Shown here: positions 27,150 to 35,708 of the stretch, in pieces
How the letters are laid out: each line of letters begins with the position of its first letter
Position numbering within the stretch: the stretch's first letter is position 1
Source of the DNA: Flavobacteriales bacterium
GTDB taxonomy: Bacteria; Bacteroidota; Bacteroidia; CAIKAF01
Assembly: GCA_022402535.1 (NCBI GenBank)
Contig: JAKRSD010000020.1
Location: forward strand, 347,341-411,340
Length of the DNA stretch: 64,000 nucleotides
Reading direction: 5' to 3'
The notes under the pieces: generated by a model
Databases searched by the model: none
Told to the model about the DNA's origin: nothing
Seen by the model: the letters and a program-made list of their open reading frames with translations, nothing else
Position numbers and translations under genes: made by a program

Positions 27150-27740
27150 TTATGGCCGCTGTTCACTCATCAATTTTTTTAAATCGTATTTCAGAACATG
27201 ATGAAAAATCATGGTCGGTAAGTTAAATCTAAATCGATCAACAAGTACTGTAAAATAAATAACGTTGTCCAAAACCATAATTACTATTGATTTTTTGTGC
27301 AAGGAATTAAAATGGTATACGGGTTCATTAAATATTAAACACTCTTTCGAACTCCGAAAAATCTCCAATTGTTGTTGTTTCGCATAGTCAAGCAGAATTT
27401 GTCGGTTCTTTTGCCTGTCAAACGGTGTGTTTATTTTCATCAAACGCTTTTCGGTCGCCTTACGGTAAATGACATATATTCCAAAAACGATAAGCATAGG
27501 AAAAATGGTCAATGAAATAAATTTGTCGTTGATGTTGCTGAAATCTGCTTCTTTAATGGCAAGTAAGGGATACACTACAAACCCGGAAGTAAACAAATAA
27601 ATAAATATCCGATCCAATTTATCGAACCAATCTTCTTCAAAAACAAGTTTTTGCCGCTTGACGCTTTGGTCTATATTTATGTTTTCTATTCTTCTCAATT
27701 GATAACGGATGATGTATTGGCTTTCGGGATTTAATAACAC
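27150..27740 (-). CDS. two-helix membrane protein of unknown function (196 aa)
   Basis: Two hydrophobic segments are seen (about residues 46-63 IFIYLFTSGFVVYPLLAI and 74-92 FISLTIFPMLIVFGIYVIY). The rest is cytosolic, Lys- and Asn-rich, with FRSSKECLIFNEPVYHFNSLHKKSI and FTVLVDRFRFNLP. I recognise no family. The gene is AT-rich compared with the MaoC gene on its left and fits the accessory island. It lies 30 bases downstream of the small nuclease-like gene on the same strand, so the two may form an operon. Confidence 0.6.
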   Translation of the reverse strand: MLLNPESQYIIRYQLRRIENINIDQSVKRQKLVFEEDWFDKLDRIFIYLFTSGFVVYPLLAIKEADFSNINDKFISLTIFPMLIVFGIYVIYRKATEKRLMKINTPFDRQKNRQILLDYAKQQQLEIFRSSKECLIFNEPVYHFNSLHKKSIVIMVLDNVIYFTVLVDRFRFNLPTMIFHHVLKYDLKKLMSEQRP

Positions 27741-27770: not shown

Positions 27771-28268
27771 TTATTTTTTGTCAAACGGCTCAAACAGTTT
27801 AACGGCGTATTCCGTGTATTCCTGCAGCATTTCTTTGGGAATGTGGAACGACTTTATGGTATTTAATCCGTAGTTGGTTTCGGGGCTTATGGCATAACCC
27901 GCCACCAGTCTTTTATAGTGAATGCACTGAATTTTTTGGGGAGATACAATGACAAACCATGCATTTTTGTATGGATAATCGGCATAATCGGTATCGAAAG
28001 AGAAACATCCGTTTGCCCGGAATTTTACTTCCATGTAAAACAAATCACCGGTAATCATACTCTGTACCACAAAATCGGGCATAAAGCGAAGGGCTTTCCC
28101 GGTTTTGAATTGGTTGTTGCGTATGGAACGGCTCAGACCCGGGTGCAGCCTTTCCAGACCGTAATTAAAAATATTGTATTGGCTGTTGATAAACAGATCC
28201 TGTATGAGTTGCTCGGCAAGGCGGCCTTTCAGTGTGTTTAGGTTAAAGGTGTTTTTCATTTGTTTCAA
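27771..28268 (-). CDS. small PD-(D/E)XK nuclease-like protein
   Basis: 165 aa. The layout is that of a restriction-endonuclease-fold protein: an N-terminal helix with Glu19 (GRLAEQLIQDLF), then a strand with Asp65 (FMPDFVVQ), and Glu80-x-Lys82 (FYMEVKFR). All core catalytic positions are present, so nuclease activity is plausible. After the core comes YPYKNAWFVIVSPQ, a usual beta-strand/alpha continuation. No DNA-binding domain is visible, so it may need a partner. An ATG 9 bases inside the frame (28259) is an equally good start. Its upstream region carries a 21-base tandem repeat. The nearest partners are the membrane protein downstream and the AlbA_2 gene upstream. Confidence 0.65.
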   Translation of the reverse strand: MKQMKNTFNLNTLKGRLAEQLIQDLFINSQYNIFNYGLERLHPGLSRSIRNNQFKTGKALRFMPDFVVQSMITGDLFYMEVKFRANGCFSFDTDYADYPYKNAWFVIVSPQKIQCIHYKRLVAGYAISPETNYGLNTIKSFHIPKEMLQEYTEYAVKLFEPFDKK

Positions 28269-28460: not shown

Positions 28461-29915
28461 TCAGAGTTTCTTAAAGGCAAATTTGGCCTGTTTGTCCCTT
28501 TGTTTATCACTCAATCGTTCTAGGATTTTTTCATTATCAATAAACTGATTCAAATACAATCTCACGTTTTTTTCGTGAATATGCGTTACCTCAACTAACT
28601 CTTTTATTGTGGCTTGATTGTGATAAAAAAGATGTTGTAAAATTCTTTTTTGGGTCTCATTATAAGAAGGCCAATTATCATGAATTGTTTTAAGAATTGA
28701 ATCTGAAATTGTTTTGGTGTGTTTGCTTATTTTATTCCTAAGTGTTAAATATACATTTCCATTTTTCTCAACATATTCAGGAGTTGAAAGCATTGATTTT
28801 TCCATAGATTGATAAATTCTTGAAACGCCTTCATTCAATTGCCTTACAAAACCCATATCTTCCAAAGCTCTTGCAATTCTAGGATTTCTCGAAAATCTTT
28901 CTGTCCTGATATTTTCTACATTTACCTGAGCTGGTAATGGGCCGCTATTTGATATTTCAAGTCTATCGTCAAAATGTTTTATATATATGGCATTTCCCTG
29001 TACGTTGTAAGAACGGTGACACAAAGCATTAACAATGCCTTCCAGCCAGGCCTCTTCAGGATATTCCGGAACTTTTATAAAGCGTCCTGTTTCCAAATCC
29101 AAAAAGAAATAGTCTTTCAGGGCAGTTTTTAGAAACTTCTTAAAGTGGTCAATAATCCAAGGAATATTATTTTCAAATCTTTCATCCTTTATCACATTAT
29201 GTTCTGTACCTGTTTTGGCTTCTAAACCTTCATATCTTATGTATCTGAGTGATGCCGACGTAATGTATTTTTCTGGGTCTTTGGCAAAAAGTAGCACACC
29301 TGCTTTTTTGATTTTGTATTGTCCGTCTTTTTTGATTGCCAAATGTCTTTTTACAAGTAAATCAAGTGAATCGCCAGAATAATTAAGCTTTTCTTTGTAC
29401 CTGTTCAGTAGTTTTATATCGAAATCTTCAAAATCAAAATCCTGCTCTATCTCATCTTCAAATTTTCGTATCTGTTTGTCGTATTCCAATTTTCTTACCG
29501 CATCCCTATCCAGTTGTCTGTTCTTATCATCAACCCTTAAATAGATTTGTTCGTTGTCTTTCCTTTTAAATATTCGCTCAATATCCTGATCAACATGATA
29601 AAGGAAAATTAGCATTCCGTCAATATCAACCTCTTCGAGTTTGATATTGCCATGAGGCTCTATAAAATCAACATAGAGATTCCTGTAATCACTGATTTTT
29701 TCGCCTAAACTATTTAAATCTTGTATCGTGCCATCATTAGCAATACCAAAAGCCAAAACACCCCCATCTGCATTGAGCATGCCGATTAATTCATTGGCAA
29801 TTTTGGTTGGATTTACGTCTTTTTCACCCAATCCTTTGCGTTCAAAGTATTGATTCTCTCTCTTCGTTTGAAGAAATTCGAGTGTGATTTGTGTATTGAA
29901 TTGTGAAACTACCAT
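28461..29915 (-). CDS. Schlafen/AlbA_2-domain ATP-binding regulator-like protein
   Basis: 484 aa. The N-terminal AlbA_2 (Schlafen-like) domain is recognisable: ENQYFERKG near residue 22, LIGMLNADGGVLAFGIAND near 43, and LRVDDKNRQ near 125. The middle holds a GHKL-like HATPase_c_4 segment (HRSYNVQGNAIYIKHFDDRLEISNSGPLP). The last 80 or so residues resemble a winged-helix DNA-binding domain (TQKRILQHLFYHNQATIKELVEV). Such proteins are often annotated as RecG-like or transcriptional regulators and are frequent in defence islands; the biochemical role is unsettled. It ends the operon-like run after the GHKL ATPase, 92 bases downstream of it. The region is AT-rich. Confidence 0.75.
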   Translation of the reverse strand: MVVSQFNTQITLEFLQTKRENQYFERKGLGEKDVNPTKIANELIGMLNADGGVLAFGIANDGTIQDLNSLGEKISDYRNLYVDFIEPHGNIKLEEVDIDGMLIFLYHVDQDIERIFKRKDNEQIYLRVDDKNRQLDRDAVRKLEYDKQIRKFEDEIEQDFDFEDFDIKLLNRYKEKLNYSGDSLDLLVKRHLAIKKDGQYKIKKAGVLLFAKDPEKYITSASLRYIRYEGLEAKTGTEHNVIKDERFENNIPWIIDHFKKFLKTALKDYFFLDLETGRFIKVPEYPEEAWLEGIVNALCHRSYNVQGNAIYIKHFDDRLEISNSGPLPAQVNVENIRTERFSRNPRIARALEDMGFVRQLNEGVSRIYQSMEKSMLSTPEYVEKNGNVYLTLRNKISKHTKTISDSILKTIHDNWPSYNETQKRILQHLFYHNQATIKELVEVTHIHEKNVRLYLNQFIDNEKILERLSDKQRDKQAKFAFKKL

Positions 29916-30007: not shown

Positions 30008-31939
30008 TTAATTCTGTTCAAATAATACTCCTTGGGTGCTTCCAAAAACTTCGTCCATTTCGGATGTGTATGTAATACTCTTAACTTCTTCAATTTTCTT
30101 TATGAGGTTAAATGTCCTTGAATGTGCTTTTGCTAAAATTATATTATAACGGCATGGTATAATATTTACACTTCCTTCTGTAAAGGTCTCATTAGCATCT
30201 GGCTCAATTTCTGAACCAAGAACATAGGCAATAATTGGTGTATTTAAGCTTACCTTTTTTGACTTTCTTAATTCTCTAGCATATAGTAATGCTTGGTCTT
30301 TTTGTTTTGTGTCAATTGGAATACCTACTCTTTTTAATTCGACAATAATTATTTTACTGAAATCGTTTGGTTCGTGGCTCTCATTGAAACTTTCACATGA
30401 GTAAACGCCAATAGATGAGTTAGGCAGAATTACGAAATCAGGACGTTTTCTTTCGTTGTCAAGTGCTTTATCATTCAGTAGGTTTTTAATGACTGTCGCT
30501 AAAGAGCGATTAGATATAAATGATATTGATTCAAATTCTGGACCGAATATCCAAAGACCATGTTCAAATAAAGGCTGTAAATCATGCAATTCATCTGCTT
30601 TTGTATCTTCTAATAGCTTTTCAAGTTTTGATACCAACTCTAAACGCCATCTTAACTCACTTAAAACCTTTTTTGCATCATCTATTGTCCATTCTTCCAA
30701 TATTTGATTAAGAGAATCTATTTCATCAGGATGATATGAGGCAATCTTTTCAAGTAGGGCGTAACCTGACCTAGATTTTTCCATTTTAGCTAATACTTCA
30801 ACAGTGGTTTCTAATTCTTGAACACCAATTGTTGGGCATTTAGATTGAACTTCTTCTAAGAAATTTACGATATTTTGTTTTGCTTCCGAAGGTAAGGAAG
30901 CTAACTGCATTCTATTTGATTCATAAACTTGCAATCTTCTTTCCTTTCGAGTTTCATACAACAAGTTTCTTAAATCGTCTCTTACAAATTCGTAAACAGC
31001 ATTTTGTAGCTTTATTACTTCATCAGTTATGTAAAACCCAGACCAATCTTTCTTTAAGTTTCTTTGGTCAATGATGTCTGCATTTGCGATATATAAAAGT
31101 CGTTTAGCAATAGGATGACGACCATCAATAATTTGAGCATCAAATGTTCCCCAATTAGGTATGCCAACTAATCTTCTATTATACCACCAAGCAATTCCAT
31201 TTTGTTTGGTATTTTTCCCTTTTTCACCATAAATTCTTTTAATCTTTATTTTGCTTCCGTTAAAATCAATAGTAAAATCTTCGGTTAAATGTGACAAATC
31301 TGTCATTGCAACCGAATGATTATTAACATAAACATTAAATTGAGGGTCAGAGATAAATCTTGAGCCAATTAGTTCTATTAGTTTTGTAGTATCAATTAAA
31401 GTTGTTTCATCAGAGTCAATTAGAGTAGAAATTTCAGTTCCATGTTCGGACTTTGAAATTGGTTTAGATTCAATTAAAATTACATCATAAGGTTTTTCAC
31501 CTGAGATTGATTTTACAACCCTAATATGTGTGTATTCTCCATCTTTGGATGTTTTAAGTTCATACTCGTTATTGAAGCAAAACATAGCATGGCGACCAAC
31601 CCCATTTCTTCCAAATACTTTTCGACTTCCATGAGAAACGTTTTTGGGAAACTTAGCATCTTTACCGCCTTGTTCAACAACACGATTATAGTTAAACTTT
31701 CCCCAACGATATAAGAGTTCATTTTTTGTCATACCAATTCCATTGTCTGAAATTGATAGTTTCCCACCAGTTTCTGGCCAATTAATTTTTACATCCGTAG
31801 AACCAGCATCCCAACAGTTTGCTACAAGTTCAATGACTGCATAATTTTGGTCTGTTACTATTTGACCTGCATGATGCCTTAAAAAGTCATCTCCAAAGGA
31901 AAATTTAAACTGGTTTTCAGGAATTTTATTTTTAGCCAT
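30008..31939 (-). CDS. GHKL (MORC/HSP90-like) ATPase with C-terminal PD-(D/E)XK-like domain
   Basis: 643 aa. The N-terminal GHKL ATPase has all motifs: Glu37/Asn41/Asp44 (ELVANCWDAGS), DNGIG at 65-69, and GRNGVGRHAMF at 110-120. A central S5-like and helical region follows (near 220-450). Residues near 498-532 carry RPDFVI and IIIVELKRVG, which fit the D...ExK core of a PD-(D/E)XK nuclease fold. This matches the prokaryotic MORC/MutL-like ATPases described by Iyer and colleagues (2008) in restriction-modification loci. The gene overlaps the methyltransferase gene by 8 bases, so the two are made together. I infer an ATP-driven DNA-cleaving or -remodelling partner of the methyltransferase; that is not shown by sequence alone. 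Confidence 0.8.
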   Translation of the reverse strand: MAKNKIPENQFKFSFGDDFLRHHAGQIVTDQNYAVIELVANCWDAGSTDVKINWPETGGKLSISDNGIGMTKNELLYRWGKFNYNRVVEQGGKDAKFPKNVSHGSRKVFGRNGVGRHAMFCFNNEYELKTSKDGEYTHIRVVKSISGEKPYDVILIESKPISKSEHGTEISTLIDSDETTLIDTTKLIELIGSRFISDPQFNVYVNNHSVAMTDLSHLTEDFTIDFNGSKIKIKRIYGEKGKNTKQNGIAWWYNRRLVGIPNWGTFDAQIIDGRHPIAKRLLYIANADIIDQRNLKKDWSGFYITDEVIKLQNAVYEFVRDDLRNLLYETRKERRLQVYESNRMQLASLPSEAKQNIVNFLEEVQSKCPTIGVQELETTVEVLAKMEKSRSGYALLEKIASYHPDEIDSLNQILEEWTIDDAKKVLSELRWRLELVSKLEKLLEDTKADELHDLQPLFEHGLWIFGPEFESISFISNRSLATVIKNLLNDKALDNERKRPDFVILPNSSIGVYSCESFNESHEPNDFSKIIIVELKRVGIPIDTKQKDQALLYARELRKSKKVSLNTPIIAYVLGSEIEPDANETFTEGSVNIIPCRYNIILAKAHSRTFNLIKKIEEVKSITYTSEMDEVFGSTQGVLFEQN

Positions 31940-34900
31940 TCTGTTCAGTTTTTTGAATGATGTTAATTTCTTCTTCCGTCAAATCGTAAAGTTGATAAAC
32001 CAATTGGTCTATTTGGTTTTCTAAATCGGTGGTGTCGGCTGATGGGTTTTGCTTTTTAATTGATAGTACAGTATCCACTATGGAGATTATATTTTTCTGC
32101 TCCTCACTCGAACATTTGATTATTGGCAATTTTCTAATGTTGATGGGCTTAACTTCTGCAAAAACTCTATTTTCCTCTTGAGTTATTTGCTTATAAAAGT
32201 AATTTATCAACCTTGAATTTAGTATACCGATAAGAAATTTATATGGAAAAGTATCCTTGAACTCTTGTTTTAATTTTAAAATCAAAACAGTATTCATAGC
32301 ATAAAATCCATCAACATCATATGTGCAGATAATTGTATCAGAAGTTTGTCTGAATATTATTTTTTCATCTTCGAATAAACCTTTGTAGCGTGGCCAATGT
32401 AAACACCACCAAGGCAAAGTGCCTTTTATAGTTTCCCGTTTTTTAGAGAGTTGTTCTTTGAATTGTTGCAAATAATTGAGACATTTTGGATACATTTTTA
32501 TATCAATCTCTTTAGTAGCATATATGATTTTGTATTCAGTCTCGTGTATCACATATTTATTAAAATCACTTCCCGTTAAAACCTTCTTTAATATGGCGGA
32601 TTCTATACCTAATTCAATAACCTTTTCAGGTGAAAGCCTAAATATTTTATCACCTGTTGGCTGAATGCCATTTGCAACTTCATCTGCTATTGTATCAATT
32701 GTAACAATGGAGTCTATTTTTCTTTTCGTAATTGCTATACCAATTTTATCGGCACTAAAAGACACAGAAGTGGATTCTAAAATTTCACGCTTACTAGAAC
32801 TTGTGTAATTGACATTTACGAACAAATTTTCGTTTTTATTTGCTTTTCTTAAATCTGTGTACTTAATTAAATCATTATCGATATTGTTTTTTGAAATCAA
32901 AATAATGCATGTCGGCACTTCTGCATCAGCAAATACTCCATCACCTAAGTTGATGACTTTAGAAATTTCATTTTGTTCAATTACTTTTCTTCTCGATTTC
33001 TCATATTCATTTTGAAACAAGAAGTTATTGGGAATTATTAAACATACTCCTGAATTATTTTTTGAAATTTCAATTGAGAGCCCAATAAAATAGTTAAATG
33101 TGTCTGTCCATCTTGTATGATACAATGTGTATTTATCCTTTAAAAAAACTTTAAATGAATCATTAAGTTCTGCTCCATAAGGCGGATTTCCAATCACCAC
33201 GTCAAATCCCACAAAATCGCCATCATCATTCAGCACTTCGGGAAATTCAAAACGCCATTCAAAAGCGTTTTCAAAAATCTTGTTGGCTTTTATTTCTTCA
33301 ATTTCGGTTTCAAGTTTTTTAATTTCTTCGGTCAGTTGCGTTACTTTCTTGTTCCAATCGGCTTTTTCCTTTTTGCTCATTTCAAAAAGTTGCCCTTGAT
33401 TGGTCATTTGATACAAGTCACCTGAAAGTTTGCGTAGCTTCTTTACTTTCGGGTCGTTCAACGAAATTTCGCTTCTGAAATCCGATTTTATGTCGGCAAT
33501 TAGTCGTTCCATTTCTCTTTTCTGTTCCTTGCTTTCAGCGTTTCGGTATGTGTCAACGGCTATTCGGTAGCTATCAATTGTCCACTTACTTTTTTTCAAG
33601 GCTTGTTTCAGGTCTGCATCAATGGCAAAACGGCTCACCAACGAGTTTCCGCATTTTATGTTGATGTCAATATTCGGCAGTGTTTCAAGTTCTGTGCTGT
33701 TTTTGTAGTAAGCATTTTTCAAAAGCTCAATCCACAAACGCAAACGGCAAATTTTTACCGAGTTGGAATTGATGTCCACACCGAAAAGGCAGTTTTCAAT
33801 AAGGGTCTGCTTTTCGTGGAAAAGTGTTTCCTGTATGCGCTGGCTTTCGGAGCGAAGTAGTGAGCCTGTCGAACTATTAGTTGGGTTGTATTCAAAAAGT
33901 TCTCCCTCTTCGTCTGTTACAATCAGTTCATCATTTACCACTTCCACCTGATATTCTTTCAGGCGTTTTCCGTCACAGTCTTGCAGAATTTTCAAGTCGT
34001 TTTTTATGGCAATCATTTCATTGAGTGCCGAAACTAAAAAGTGTCCTGAACCCACGGCAGGGTCGCAAATTTTGATGCTGTTTACAATTTGGTTGGCTTC
34101 TTTTCGGTCTTCAATTTTGTCGTAAAGTTCTTCAAGCGTGGTGCAGTTCCATTTTTTGGTTTCGTTGAATTTCTGCACAACGGCCTTACGGATGGTTTCG
34201 CGGCACATATACATGGTAATGAAACCCGGAGTGAAAAACGAACCGTCTTTATATCCGTTTATTTTCTCGAAAATCAAACCGAGAACCGAAGCGTTAATCA
34301 GCGTTTTGTTGTCTTCCTGAATTGCTGAACCGCCTTCGGCTCCAAAATCGTAAGCATCTAAAAACTCAAACAGATATTGATGCGTGGTGATGCTGCCAGT
34401 CCGCTTTTTACCCTGCCGGTCTTTAAGTACGGTTTGAGAATAAATGGGAATGGTTTTATCGTCTTTCAGATTGCTGATAAACAATGTCATCTGCTCAATG
34501 TCGGTCGGCTCAAAAAGCGAAGAGTTGAGATAAGGTACTTTCTCAAAAGCCCTTTTCACATCCTCGTTCCGCTCTTCATACTTGCGGGCCAACACCTGAA
34601 AAAACAGGCTGTTCAGGTCGTCATAGTTTTTTATTTTATCAAGGTTTAAAAACGAATACGATTTATCGCCTTTGTGATAGGTGATGAGCTGGGCCTCCAA
34701 CAGCTTCAAAAACAGAATACGGTTTATCCAAGTGATGGAAAGCTCAAGGGCAACATTAAAAAGGCGTTCCTGTTGTGTATTTCCATATTGGTTAGGCTTT
34801 TCAAGTCGACTCAATTTATCTAAGCTGTCCAGCTGAATGATGGCATCTTCAAGCAAACTTCCTGTATTTCGCTCACCTTCTTTGTTTCGCTGTATCAGTT

Positions 34901-35708
34901 TTTTGCTTCCTTCTTTGGTTTCGGTAAGTCCGATAATATGGAGCAACTCGCTGTAAAAGCGTTTGTCGAGGCTGTTGCTGTCATTGGTAAACGGAAGTTT
35001 CAAAAGGTGCTCGGGAGAAAGCAGTTTGAACAGGGCAATCAGGGCATTATCGTCTGCTTTGTCAGCATTACGCAGCGGCTTCTGAAAATCCTGAATGTTG
35101 AAGTAGGTAAATTCAATCTCAGAGTTTATTCCTGCAATAAACGGCTCGGCAACTTGCTTATAGAAAAAGTCCGTTTTGGTGTCTGCCAATCGTCCTGCTT
35201 CAAAGTCATTAAATTGTTTTACCAGGTTTTTGTTTTGAGCAAAAAGTCTATCGAACAGGGTGGCGTCAAAAATGAACCATTCGTTAATGTTGGTTGCCAC
35301 CAAATGTTTTACTTCAAGATTTTTATGAGTAATTCTTTCTCGTAGGTAATACAAAACCAATTCCTGAAAAGCTTTTGCGTTCAGTTTTTTGGTGGTAATC
35401 ATCTCGACTTTATTGGTCGGCTTTTTCGCTTCGAGGATTACACCGACTGTGGAGTTTGCGTTTTGTCCGTTGTGTATAACCAGATCGTTTCTTCCCTTGG
35501 TATTGATGAAATGATTTTGCTTGTAATAGGTATCCTTGAGAAAGTCGGAAACCAAGTTTTTATGAAACTCTTCGCTTTCTGTATCATTAGTTCGGTCAAG
35601 TAAAGTGATAAGATTGTTCTTGAAACCTTCAATTTCAGTTCTATTGGGTTTAACTTTCAGGAAGGCTTTGTTCAGCGCCTTTCTTGGTTTCAGTTCTTTC
35701 AATGTCAT
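31932..35708 (-). CDS. Eco57I-type N6-adenine methyltransferase with N-terminal nuclease motif
   Basis: 1258 aa. N-terminal residues 70-100 hold NDLVIH (Asp75) and ILEAKKP (Glu93-Ala-Lys95), a PD-(D/E)XK-like core with Glu47/48 upstream, typical of type IIG/IIL fused restriction-modification enzymes. Methyltransferase motif I, DPAVGSGHF, is near residue 550 and motif IV, NPPY, near residue 840. The C-terminal 300 or so residues after it look like a TaqI-type target-recognition domain. Such enzymes methylate adenine in a specific site and, if the nuclease is active, cut unmodified DNA. It heads a minus-strand operon with the GHKL ATPase (8-base overlap). The composition changes near NPPY: 34141-34200 has 27 G+C of 60 bases, 32521-32580 has 16 and 32821-32880 has 13. 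Confidence 0.88.
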   Translation of the reverse strand: MTLKELKPRKALNKAFLKVKPNRTEIEGFKNNLITLLDRTNDTESEEFHKNLVSDFLKDTYYKQNHFINTKGRNDLVIHNGQNANSTVGVILEAKKPTNKVEMITTKKLNAKAFQELVLYYLRERITHKNLEVKHLVATNINEWFIFDATLFDRLFAQNKNLVKQFNDFEAGRLADTKTDFFYKQVAEPFIAGINSEIEFTYFNIQDFQKPLRNADKADDNALIALFKLLSPEHLLKLPFTNDSNSLDKRFYSELLHIIGLTETKEGSKKLIQRNKEGERNTGSLLEDAIIQLDSLDKLSRLEKPNQYGNTQQERLFNVALELSITWINRILFLKLLEAQLITYHKGDKSYSFLNLDKIKNYDDLNSLFFQVLARKYEERNEDVKRAFEKVPYLNSSLFEPTDIEQMTLFISNLKDDKTIPIYSQTVLKDRQGKKRTGSITTHQYLFEFLDAYDFGAEGGSAIQEDNKTLINASVLGLIFEKINGYKDGSFFTPGFITMYMCRETIRKAVVQKFNETKKWNCTTLEELYDKIEDRKEANQIVNSIKICDPAVGSGHFLVSALNEMIAIKNDLKILQDCDGKRLKEYQVEVVNDELIVTDEEGELFEYNPTNSSTGSLLRSESQRIQETLFHEKQTLIENCLFGVDINSNSVKICRLRLWIELLKNAYYKNSTELETLPNIDINIKCGNSLVSRFAIDADLKQALKKSKWTIDSYRIAVDTYRNAESKEQKREMERLIADIKSDFRSEISLNDPKVKKLRKLSGDLYQMTNQGQLFEMSKKEKADWNKKVTQLTEEIKKLETEIEEIKANKIFENAFEWRFEFPEVLNDDGDFVGFDVVIGNPPYGAELNDSFKVFLKDKYTLYHTRWTDTFNYFIGLSIEISKNNSGVCLIIPNNFLFQNEYEKSRRKVIEQNEISKVINLGDGVFADAEVPTCIILISKNNIDNDLIKYTDLRKANKNENLFVNVNYTSSSKREILESTSVSFSADKIGIAITKRKIDSIVTIDTIADEVANGIQPTGDKIFRLSPEKVIELGIESAILKKVLTGSDFNKYVIHETEYKIIYATKEIDIKMYPKCLNYLQQFKEQLSKKRETIKGTLPWWCLHWPRYKGLFEDEKIIFRQTSDTIICTYDVDGFYAMNTVLILKLKQEFKDTFPYKFLIGILNSRLINYFYKQITQEENRVFAEVKPINIRKLPIIKCSSEEQKNIISIVDTVLSIKKQNPSADTTDLENQIDQLVYQLYDLTEEEINIIQKTEQNG

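Follow-up and report, generated by a model that had tools for sequence, protein, structure and literature searches.

A type IIG restriction-methyltransferase and a paraMORC3-type GHKL ATPase with a C-terminal nuclease domain, probably two stacked phage defenses in a low-GC island

The window, the whole 64,000-nucleotide stretch of Flavobacteriales DNA that was analyzed, comes from a genome of 3.4 Mb and carries on its minus strand, in this order, genes of 1258, 643, and 484 aa. The start of the second gene overlaps the stop of the first by 8 bases, and the third follows on the same strand 92 nt downstream of the second. Both overlapping reading frames, and the overlap itself, are as the original prediction described them. 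Two small ORFs round off a block with a GC content of 31 to 42% over 27 to 36 kb, as against mostly 42 to 51% in the immediate flanks; a MaoC-like gene lies on one side of the block and a gene for a polyprenyl synthetase on the other. The locus looks like a horizontally acquired defense island. In an empty-site comparison, relatives of the polyprenyl synthetase neighbor reached only 40 to 50% identity and did not share flanks. Scanning the window with Rfam and for tRNAs gave no matches, and promoter-like sites in the window did not exceed the chance level. The features are as follows.

31932..35708, minus strand: gene 1, type IIG restriction-methyltransferase, 1258 aa (PADLOC PDLC03612 REase_MTase_IIG, residues 3-1253, E = 4e-253)
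35292..35573, minus strand: predicted PD-(D/E)XK core of the IIG, residues 46-139 (E46/E47, D75, E93-x-K95; predicted topology)
34980..35693, minus strand: DUF7149, N-terminal nuclease-like domain of the IIG (Pfam E = 7e-104)
34296..34979, minus strand: DUF7814, linker domain of the IIG (Pfam E = 8e-101)
34038..34064, minus strand: SAM-binding motif DPAVGSGHF, residues 549-557 (invariant, 14 homologs)
33177..33188, minus strand: NPPY, residues 841-844, N6-adenine methyltransferase catalytic motif (invariant, 14 homologs)
32121..32585, minus strand: TaqI-like target recognition domain, the specificity module (Pfam TaqI_C E = 5e-18)
31932..31939, minus strand: overlap of IIG stop and ATPase start (ORF coordinates)
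30008..31939, minus strand: gene 2, paraMORC3-type GHKL ATPase with C-terminal PD-(D/E)XK nuclease domain, 643 aa (domains, Foldseek)
31436..31846, minus strand: GHKL (HATPase_c_3) domain (Pfam E = 1e-15)
31034..31357, minus strand: S5-like second domain with conserved GIAWW..RLVG (conserved block; identity inferred from the MORC match)
30104..30592, minus strand: C-terminal PD-(D/E)XK nuclease domain (E468/E470, D501, E534-x-K536, Q549; invariant residues and predicted topology)
28461..29915, minus strand: SLFN_AlbA_2, HATPase_c_4, and winged-helix gene, 484 aa (Pfam E = 2e-14 and 5e-19)
27771..28268, minus strand: 165-aa ORF with a PDFVV...MEVKF pattern (sequence only)
27150..27740, minus strand: 196-aa ORF inside the low-GC island (ORF listing)

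Judged from its domains and motifs, gene 1 is a typical type IIG restriction-methyltransferase, for which both cleavage and methylation are predicted. Pfam identifies DUF7149, DUF7814, Eco57I, and TaqI_C domains. The PADLOC comparison that the original prediction had called for returned the full-length IIG match listed above. The restriction or defense context that it had proposed is supported. The residues it named (D75, E93-A-K95, DPAVGSGHF, and NPPY) are all in place, and D75, E93, K95, and the two methyltransferase motifs are unchanged across 14 IIG homologs with identities down to 37%. In the AlphaFold model, the N-terminal core comprises a helix (46-62), two strands (76-79 and 88-94), a second helix (112-127), and a further strand (135-139), at a pLDDT of about 80 to 95. 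The top two Foldseek matches to the N-terminus were the type IIG enzymes BpuSI and DrdV, at non-significant E values of 0.3 to 0.6.

The IIG family is widespread: a search of 395 Bacteroidia genomes at E ≤ 1e-40 detected it in 35, and one of 395 genomes of the phylum at E ≤ 1e-100 detected it in 34, or about 9% of the sampled Bacteroidota genomes. Many relatives share 50 to 84% identity, with a match that stops at about residue 940 to 970, which argues that the recognition domain has been exchanged. Plasmid-borne IIGs from Firmicutes, Actinomycetota, and Bacteroides mostly lack a coupled partner, so the IIG appears self-sufficient. Some homologs, those at loci L141, L150, L222, and L223, are 1378 to 1481 aa long, with a match split around residues 517 to 536 or 672, which suggests an insertion in the methyltransferase.

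The second gene encodes a protein with the full set of GHKL motifs that had been claimed for it (E37xxxN41, D65xGxG, G110xxGxG, and G167T168), nearly all of whose residues are invariant across 13 homologs at 28 to 36% identity to the window protein. The kinship to MORC-type ATPases that the original prediction had pointed to is borne out by the best solved-structure match in Foldseek, the MORC3 ATPase-CW cassette (PDB ID: 5ix2, E = 1.2e-12, about 390 columns), which spans the S5-like second domain. Within that domain, the block GIAWWYNRRLVG partly resembles the S5 motif of MORC proper, GhXhhpXXRhl, by unscored inspection. At the C-terminus, RPDFVI (499-504) and ELK (534-536) lie where they had been reported. 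D501, E534, K536, and Q549 are unchanged in the same 13 homologs, and E470 is replaced by Asp in some. The AlphaFold model predicts an α-β-β-β-α-β core. In all 13 family members, the GHKL region matches a PADLOC REase_II model. In a tree of 18 relatives, the window ATPase forms a long isolated branch with a best identity of 36 to 37%; most of the hits at L026 to L098 match in the GHKL region only, many of them looking like HtpG-type chaperones, and were set aside. No close relatives turned up in E. coli genomes, for which the Rahnella relative served as query, or in phages.

A loose D-x(8-40)-[ED]xK pattern arises in 75 to 85% of shuffles of the same composition, and a nuclease motif alone is therefore weak evidence. 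Given that both cores are invariant in diverged homologs (14 for the IIG and 13 for the ATPase), we consider both nuclease-like cores real; AlphaFold places the residues of each in an α-β-β-(β)-α-β topology. The two nuclease-like centers and single GHKL ATPase proposed from the sequence are thus upheld.

The 484-aa gene probably has a regulatory or accessory role; no other PF04326 gene was found in the genome. Its weak relatives follow two IIG loci (L131 and L136) and one ATPase locus (L019), and one relative lies within a type I restriction cluster. Overall, this gene type recurs near the restriction loci L131, L136, L019, and L286, and a further example, at L284, belongs to a prophage lysogeny module. 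The 165-aa ORF matched nothing among the families and plasmids searched; its motif pattern makes it a possible small PD-(D/E)XK protein, the third in the island.

We compared the neighborhoods of both proteins across the sampled loci. The ATPase is the neighbor of none of about 74 other IIG loci, and this IIG adjoins none of the 17 other full-length ATPase loci, the latter being relatives of at most 36 to 37% identity. One genome (G209) contains both, on different contigs. A conserved two-gene system was rejected as the default, the pair occurring at no other sampled locus. Sequence clustering splits the 33 genes that closely follow IIGs into 29 clusters, and many of these genes are defense-like (Shedu, GmrSD, ApeA, SIR2, DUF4238, and HNH); the same slot also holds a PrrC/RloC-like gene (L207) and KAP genes. 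At three loci (L129:147-821, L134:5746-6423, and L158:2568-3245) a conserved gene of about 225 aa, resembling a membrane protein and 72 to 91% identical, lies right behind the IIG. Close spacing follows 33 of 75 IIGs as against 172 of 513 control pairs (p = 0.09, not significant), and overlaps are inflated because the ORF caller picks the start farthest upstream; the 8-base overlap is thereby weakened as a sign of a complex. Where the original prediction had this overlap fix co-expression, the overlap makes co-expression plausible. The locus is made of known parts in an arrangement seen nowhere else in the sample.

The lack of co-occurrence, the hypervariable slot, and a frequency of close spacing not significantly above that of control pairs favor stacking over a dedicated system. 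Our preferred reading, to which we assign a probability of roughly 0.6, is that two known phage defenses are stacked in the low-GC island and act independently. The two co-directional genes would probably be co-transcribed. The TaqI-like C-terminal domain of the IIG would pick a site. There the Eco57I-type domain would methylate adenine in the DNA of the host, while unmethylated foreign DNA would be cut by the N-terminal PD-(D/E)XK domain. The GHKL and S5 domains of the ATPase may dimerize on ATP and clamp foreign DNA, and this ATP-driven clamping would switch on the C-terminal PD-(D/E)XK nuclease. The MORC/MutL fold, together with the model for VcSduA in the literature, suggests such gating. 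The ATPase gene would be the current occupant of the hypervariable slot behind the IIG gene. Stacking is supported by the end-to-end match of the IIG to a family often found on plasmids without a coupled partner, by the ability of VcSduA, of the same architecture, to protect alone (PMC12137116), by the standalone subset of paraMORC3 described in 2008 (PMC2292703), and by the low GC content of the block relative to its flanks. It is weakened by the isolated position of the window ATPase, at a best identity of 36 to 37%, and by the methyltransferases found beside some of its relatives. The original prediction had gone further and suggested an ATP-dependent restriction system rather than just a type IIG enzyme. 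This is not supported: no other sampled locus has the pair, and both partners are found on their own at other loci.

Four ATPase relatives directly adjoin DNA methyltransferases that have no recognizable nuclease: a C5 methyltransferase 3 nt upstream at L146, an M.Eco57I-like enzyme at L023, and MmeI-like enzymes directly downstream of the GHKL-PD-(D/E)XK genes at L019:10017-12689 and L020:10105-12777. The N-termini of the two MmeI-like proteins show no recognizable ExK core, and their alignment begins only at MmeI residue 109 or 83, beyond the MmeI catalytic residues (D70, E80, and K82). Counting back by eye from the aligned DLD block, L020 has Gln and Leu at the Glu and Lys positions; other genes at this locus are GmrSD-like (upstream) and helicase-like (downstream). 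The nuclease core has apparently been lost from both MmeI-like enzymes, in which case the GHKL-nuclease would supply the cutting, and members of the ATPase family may act as methylation-guided restriction nucleases. A functional link between the IIG and the ATPase is conceivable because of these neighbors. The adjacency is suggestive only, since 4 of 18 relatives are a minority and defense islands gather such neighbors.

Given these arrangements, the IIG and the ATPase could instead form a cooperative system, in which the IIG sets a methyl mark and the ATP-gated GHKL-nuclease spares marked DNA or is recruited by the IIG. The 8-base overlap, the match of the GHKL region to BbrUII/HgiDII, and the REase_II matches throughout the family are consistent with cooperation. 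However, the window methyltransferase, in contrast to those beside the four relatives, has retained an invariant nuclease core, the two genes are not conserved as a pair, and overlap is common among control gene pairs; we regard cooperation as tentative and on the unlikely side. A dedicated two-nuclease system, in which IIG methylation would license or restrain the MORC-like, ATP-gated nuclease as a methylation-guided MORC clamp, strikes us as doubtful.

Toxins are kept beside restriction systems, PrrC being an example. The ATPase might be a PrrC-like backup triggered by inhibition of the IIG or by DNA ends, which would fit the PrrC/RloC-like, SIR2, ApeA, and KAP genes that fill the slot elsewhere and the reported sensing of DNA ends by Shedu proteins, as cited in PMC12137116 and PMC12409362; against this, VcSduA reportedly protects without host killing (PMC12137116), and we give the idea little credence. 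A reading in which either gene, or both, is silent or serves a non-defense role such as epigenetic regulation would suit the standalone paraMORC3 members, for which Iyer et al. suggest possible other functions (PMC2292703), but is very improbable with all catalytic residues intact and a defense-like neighborhood.

Under the preferred reading of independent stacking, the locus is an example of how defenses are stacked behind a type IIG enzyme of wide distribution. Relatives of the GHKL-nuclease repeatedly neighbor methyltransferases from several families (C5, M.Eco57I-like, and MmeI-like), with a IIG here, and this adjacency makes a testable case for paraMORC3 proteins as restriction nucleases. 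DNA methylation may have been the first thing to which MORC-type ATPases responded, and a methylation-guided MORC clamp, if true, would tie restriction in bacteria to the MORC mechanism of eukaryotes.

Compared with known type IIG enzymes (PDLC03612; DUF7149-DUF7814-Eco57I-TaqI_C), gene 1 matches over its full length with the same domain order and, like them, has intact nuclease and methyltransferase motifs and a variable C-terminal recognition domain; the protein itself is no different, and what differs is its downstream neighbor. The ATPase matches the BbrUII/HgiDII restriction enzymes (NF050001) in the GHKL region only (residues 36-227, E = 1e-25), and its 89.9 bits lie far under the curated cut-off of 550. 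Its best solved-structure match is the ATPase module of eukaryotic MORC3, but it has a C-terminal nuclease where MORC3 has a CW domain. The Shedu SduA_C model PF14082 (SduA, DUF4263) did not match the window ATPase and matched 1 of 13 family members, at E = 0.018, and profile comparison of the ATPase with two Shedu proteins gave no match; Shedu membership by sequence was rejected on these results.

The paraMORC3 family was defined in 2008 by Iyer, Abhiman, and Aravind as GHKL and S5 with a restriction-fold domain bearing E-D-ExK and has some members in restriction loci and some standalone (PMC2292703). The window ATPase shares the GHKL, S5-like, and C-terminal E-D-ExK restriction-fold domains and the sporadic distribution in proteobacteria and Bacteroidota, but forms an isolated branch by sequence. 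The parts of the 2008 text that were consulted contain no description of a paraMORC3 gene adjoining a type IIG enzyme. A protein of E. coli phage PhiR44_1 (L275:3992-5950) is named ParaMORC3, has an E-D-ExK-like C-terminus, and adjoins a dcm gene on the opposite strand. The profile match between it and the window ATPase covers residues 20-214 only (probability 99%), and the order of the C-terminal motifs is alike by eye. VcSduA is a single-gene phage defense in which E27A or K557A abolishes protection (PMC12137116, Nat Microbiol 2025); its authors equate the GHKL-S5-PD-(D/E)XK architecture with paraMORC3 and place VcSduA in Shedu type I-D (PMC12137116). The window ATPase resembles it in the GHKL N-terminus and C-terminal PD-(D/E)XK domain, with the catalytic Glu near 30 and Lys near 540 to 560, a likeness of architecture rather than of direct sequence alignment. 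With PF14082 unmatched, we label the ATPase paraMORC3 by architecture and VcSduA-like, not Shedu. The architecture, which the original prediction thought possibly new, is thus a known one, shared with paraMORC3 (2008) and VcSduA (2025).
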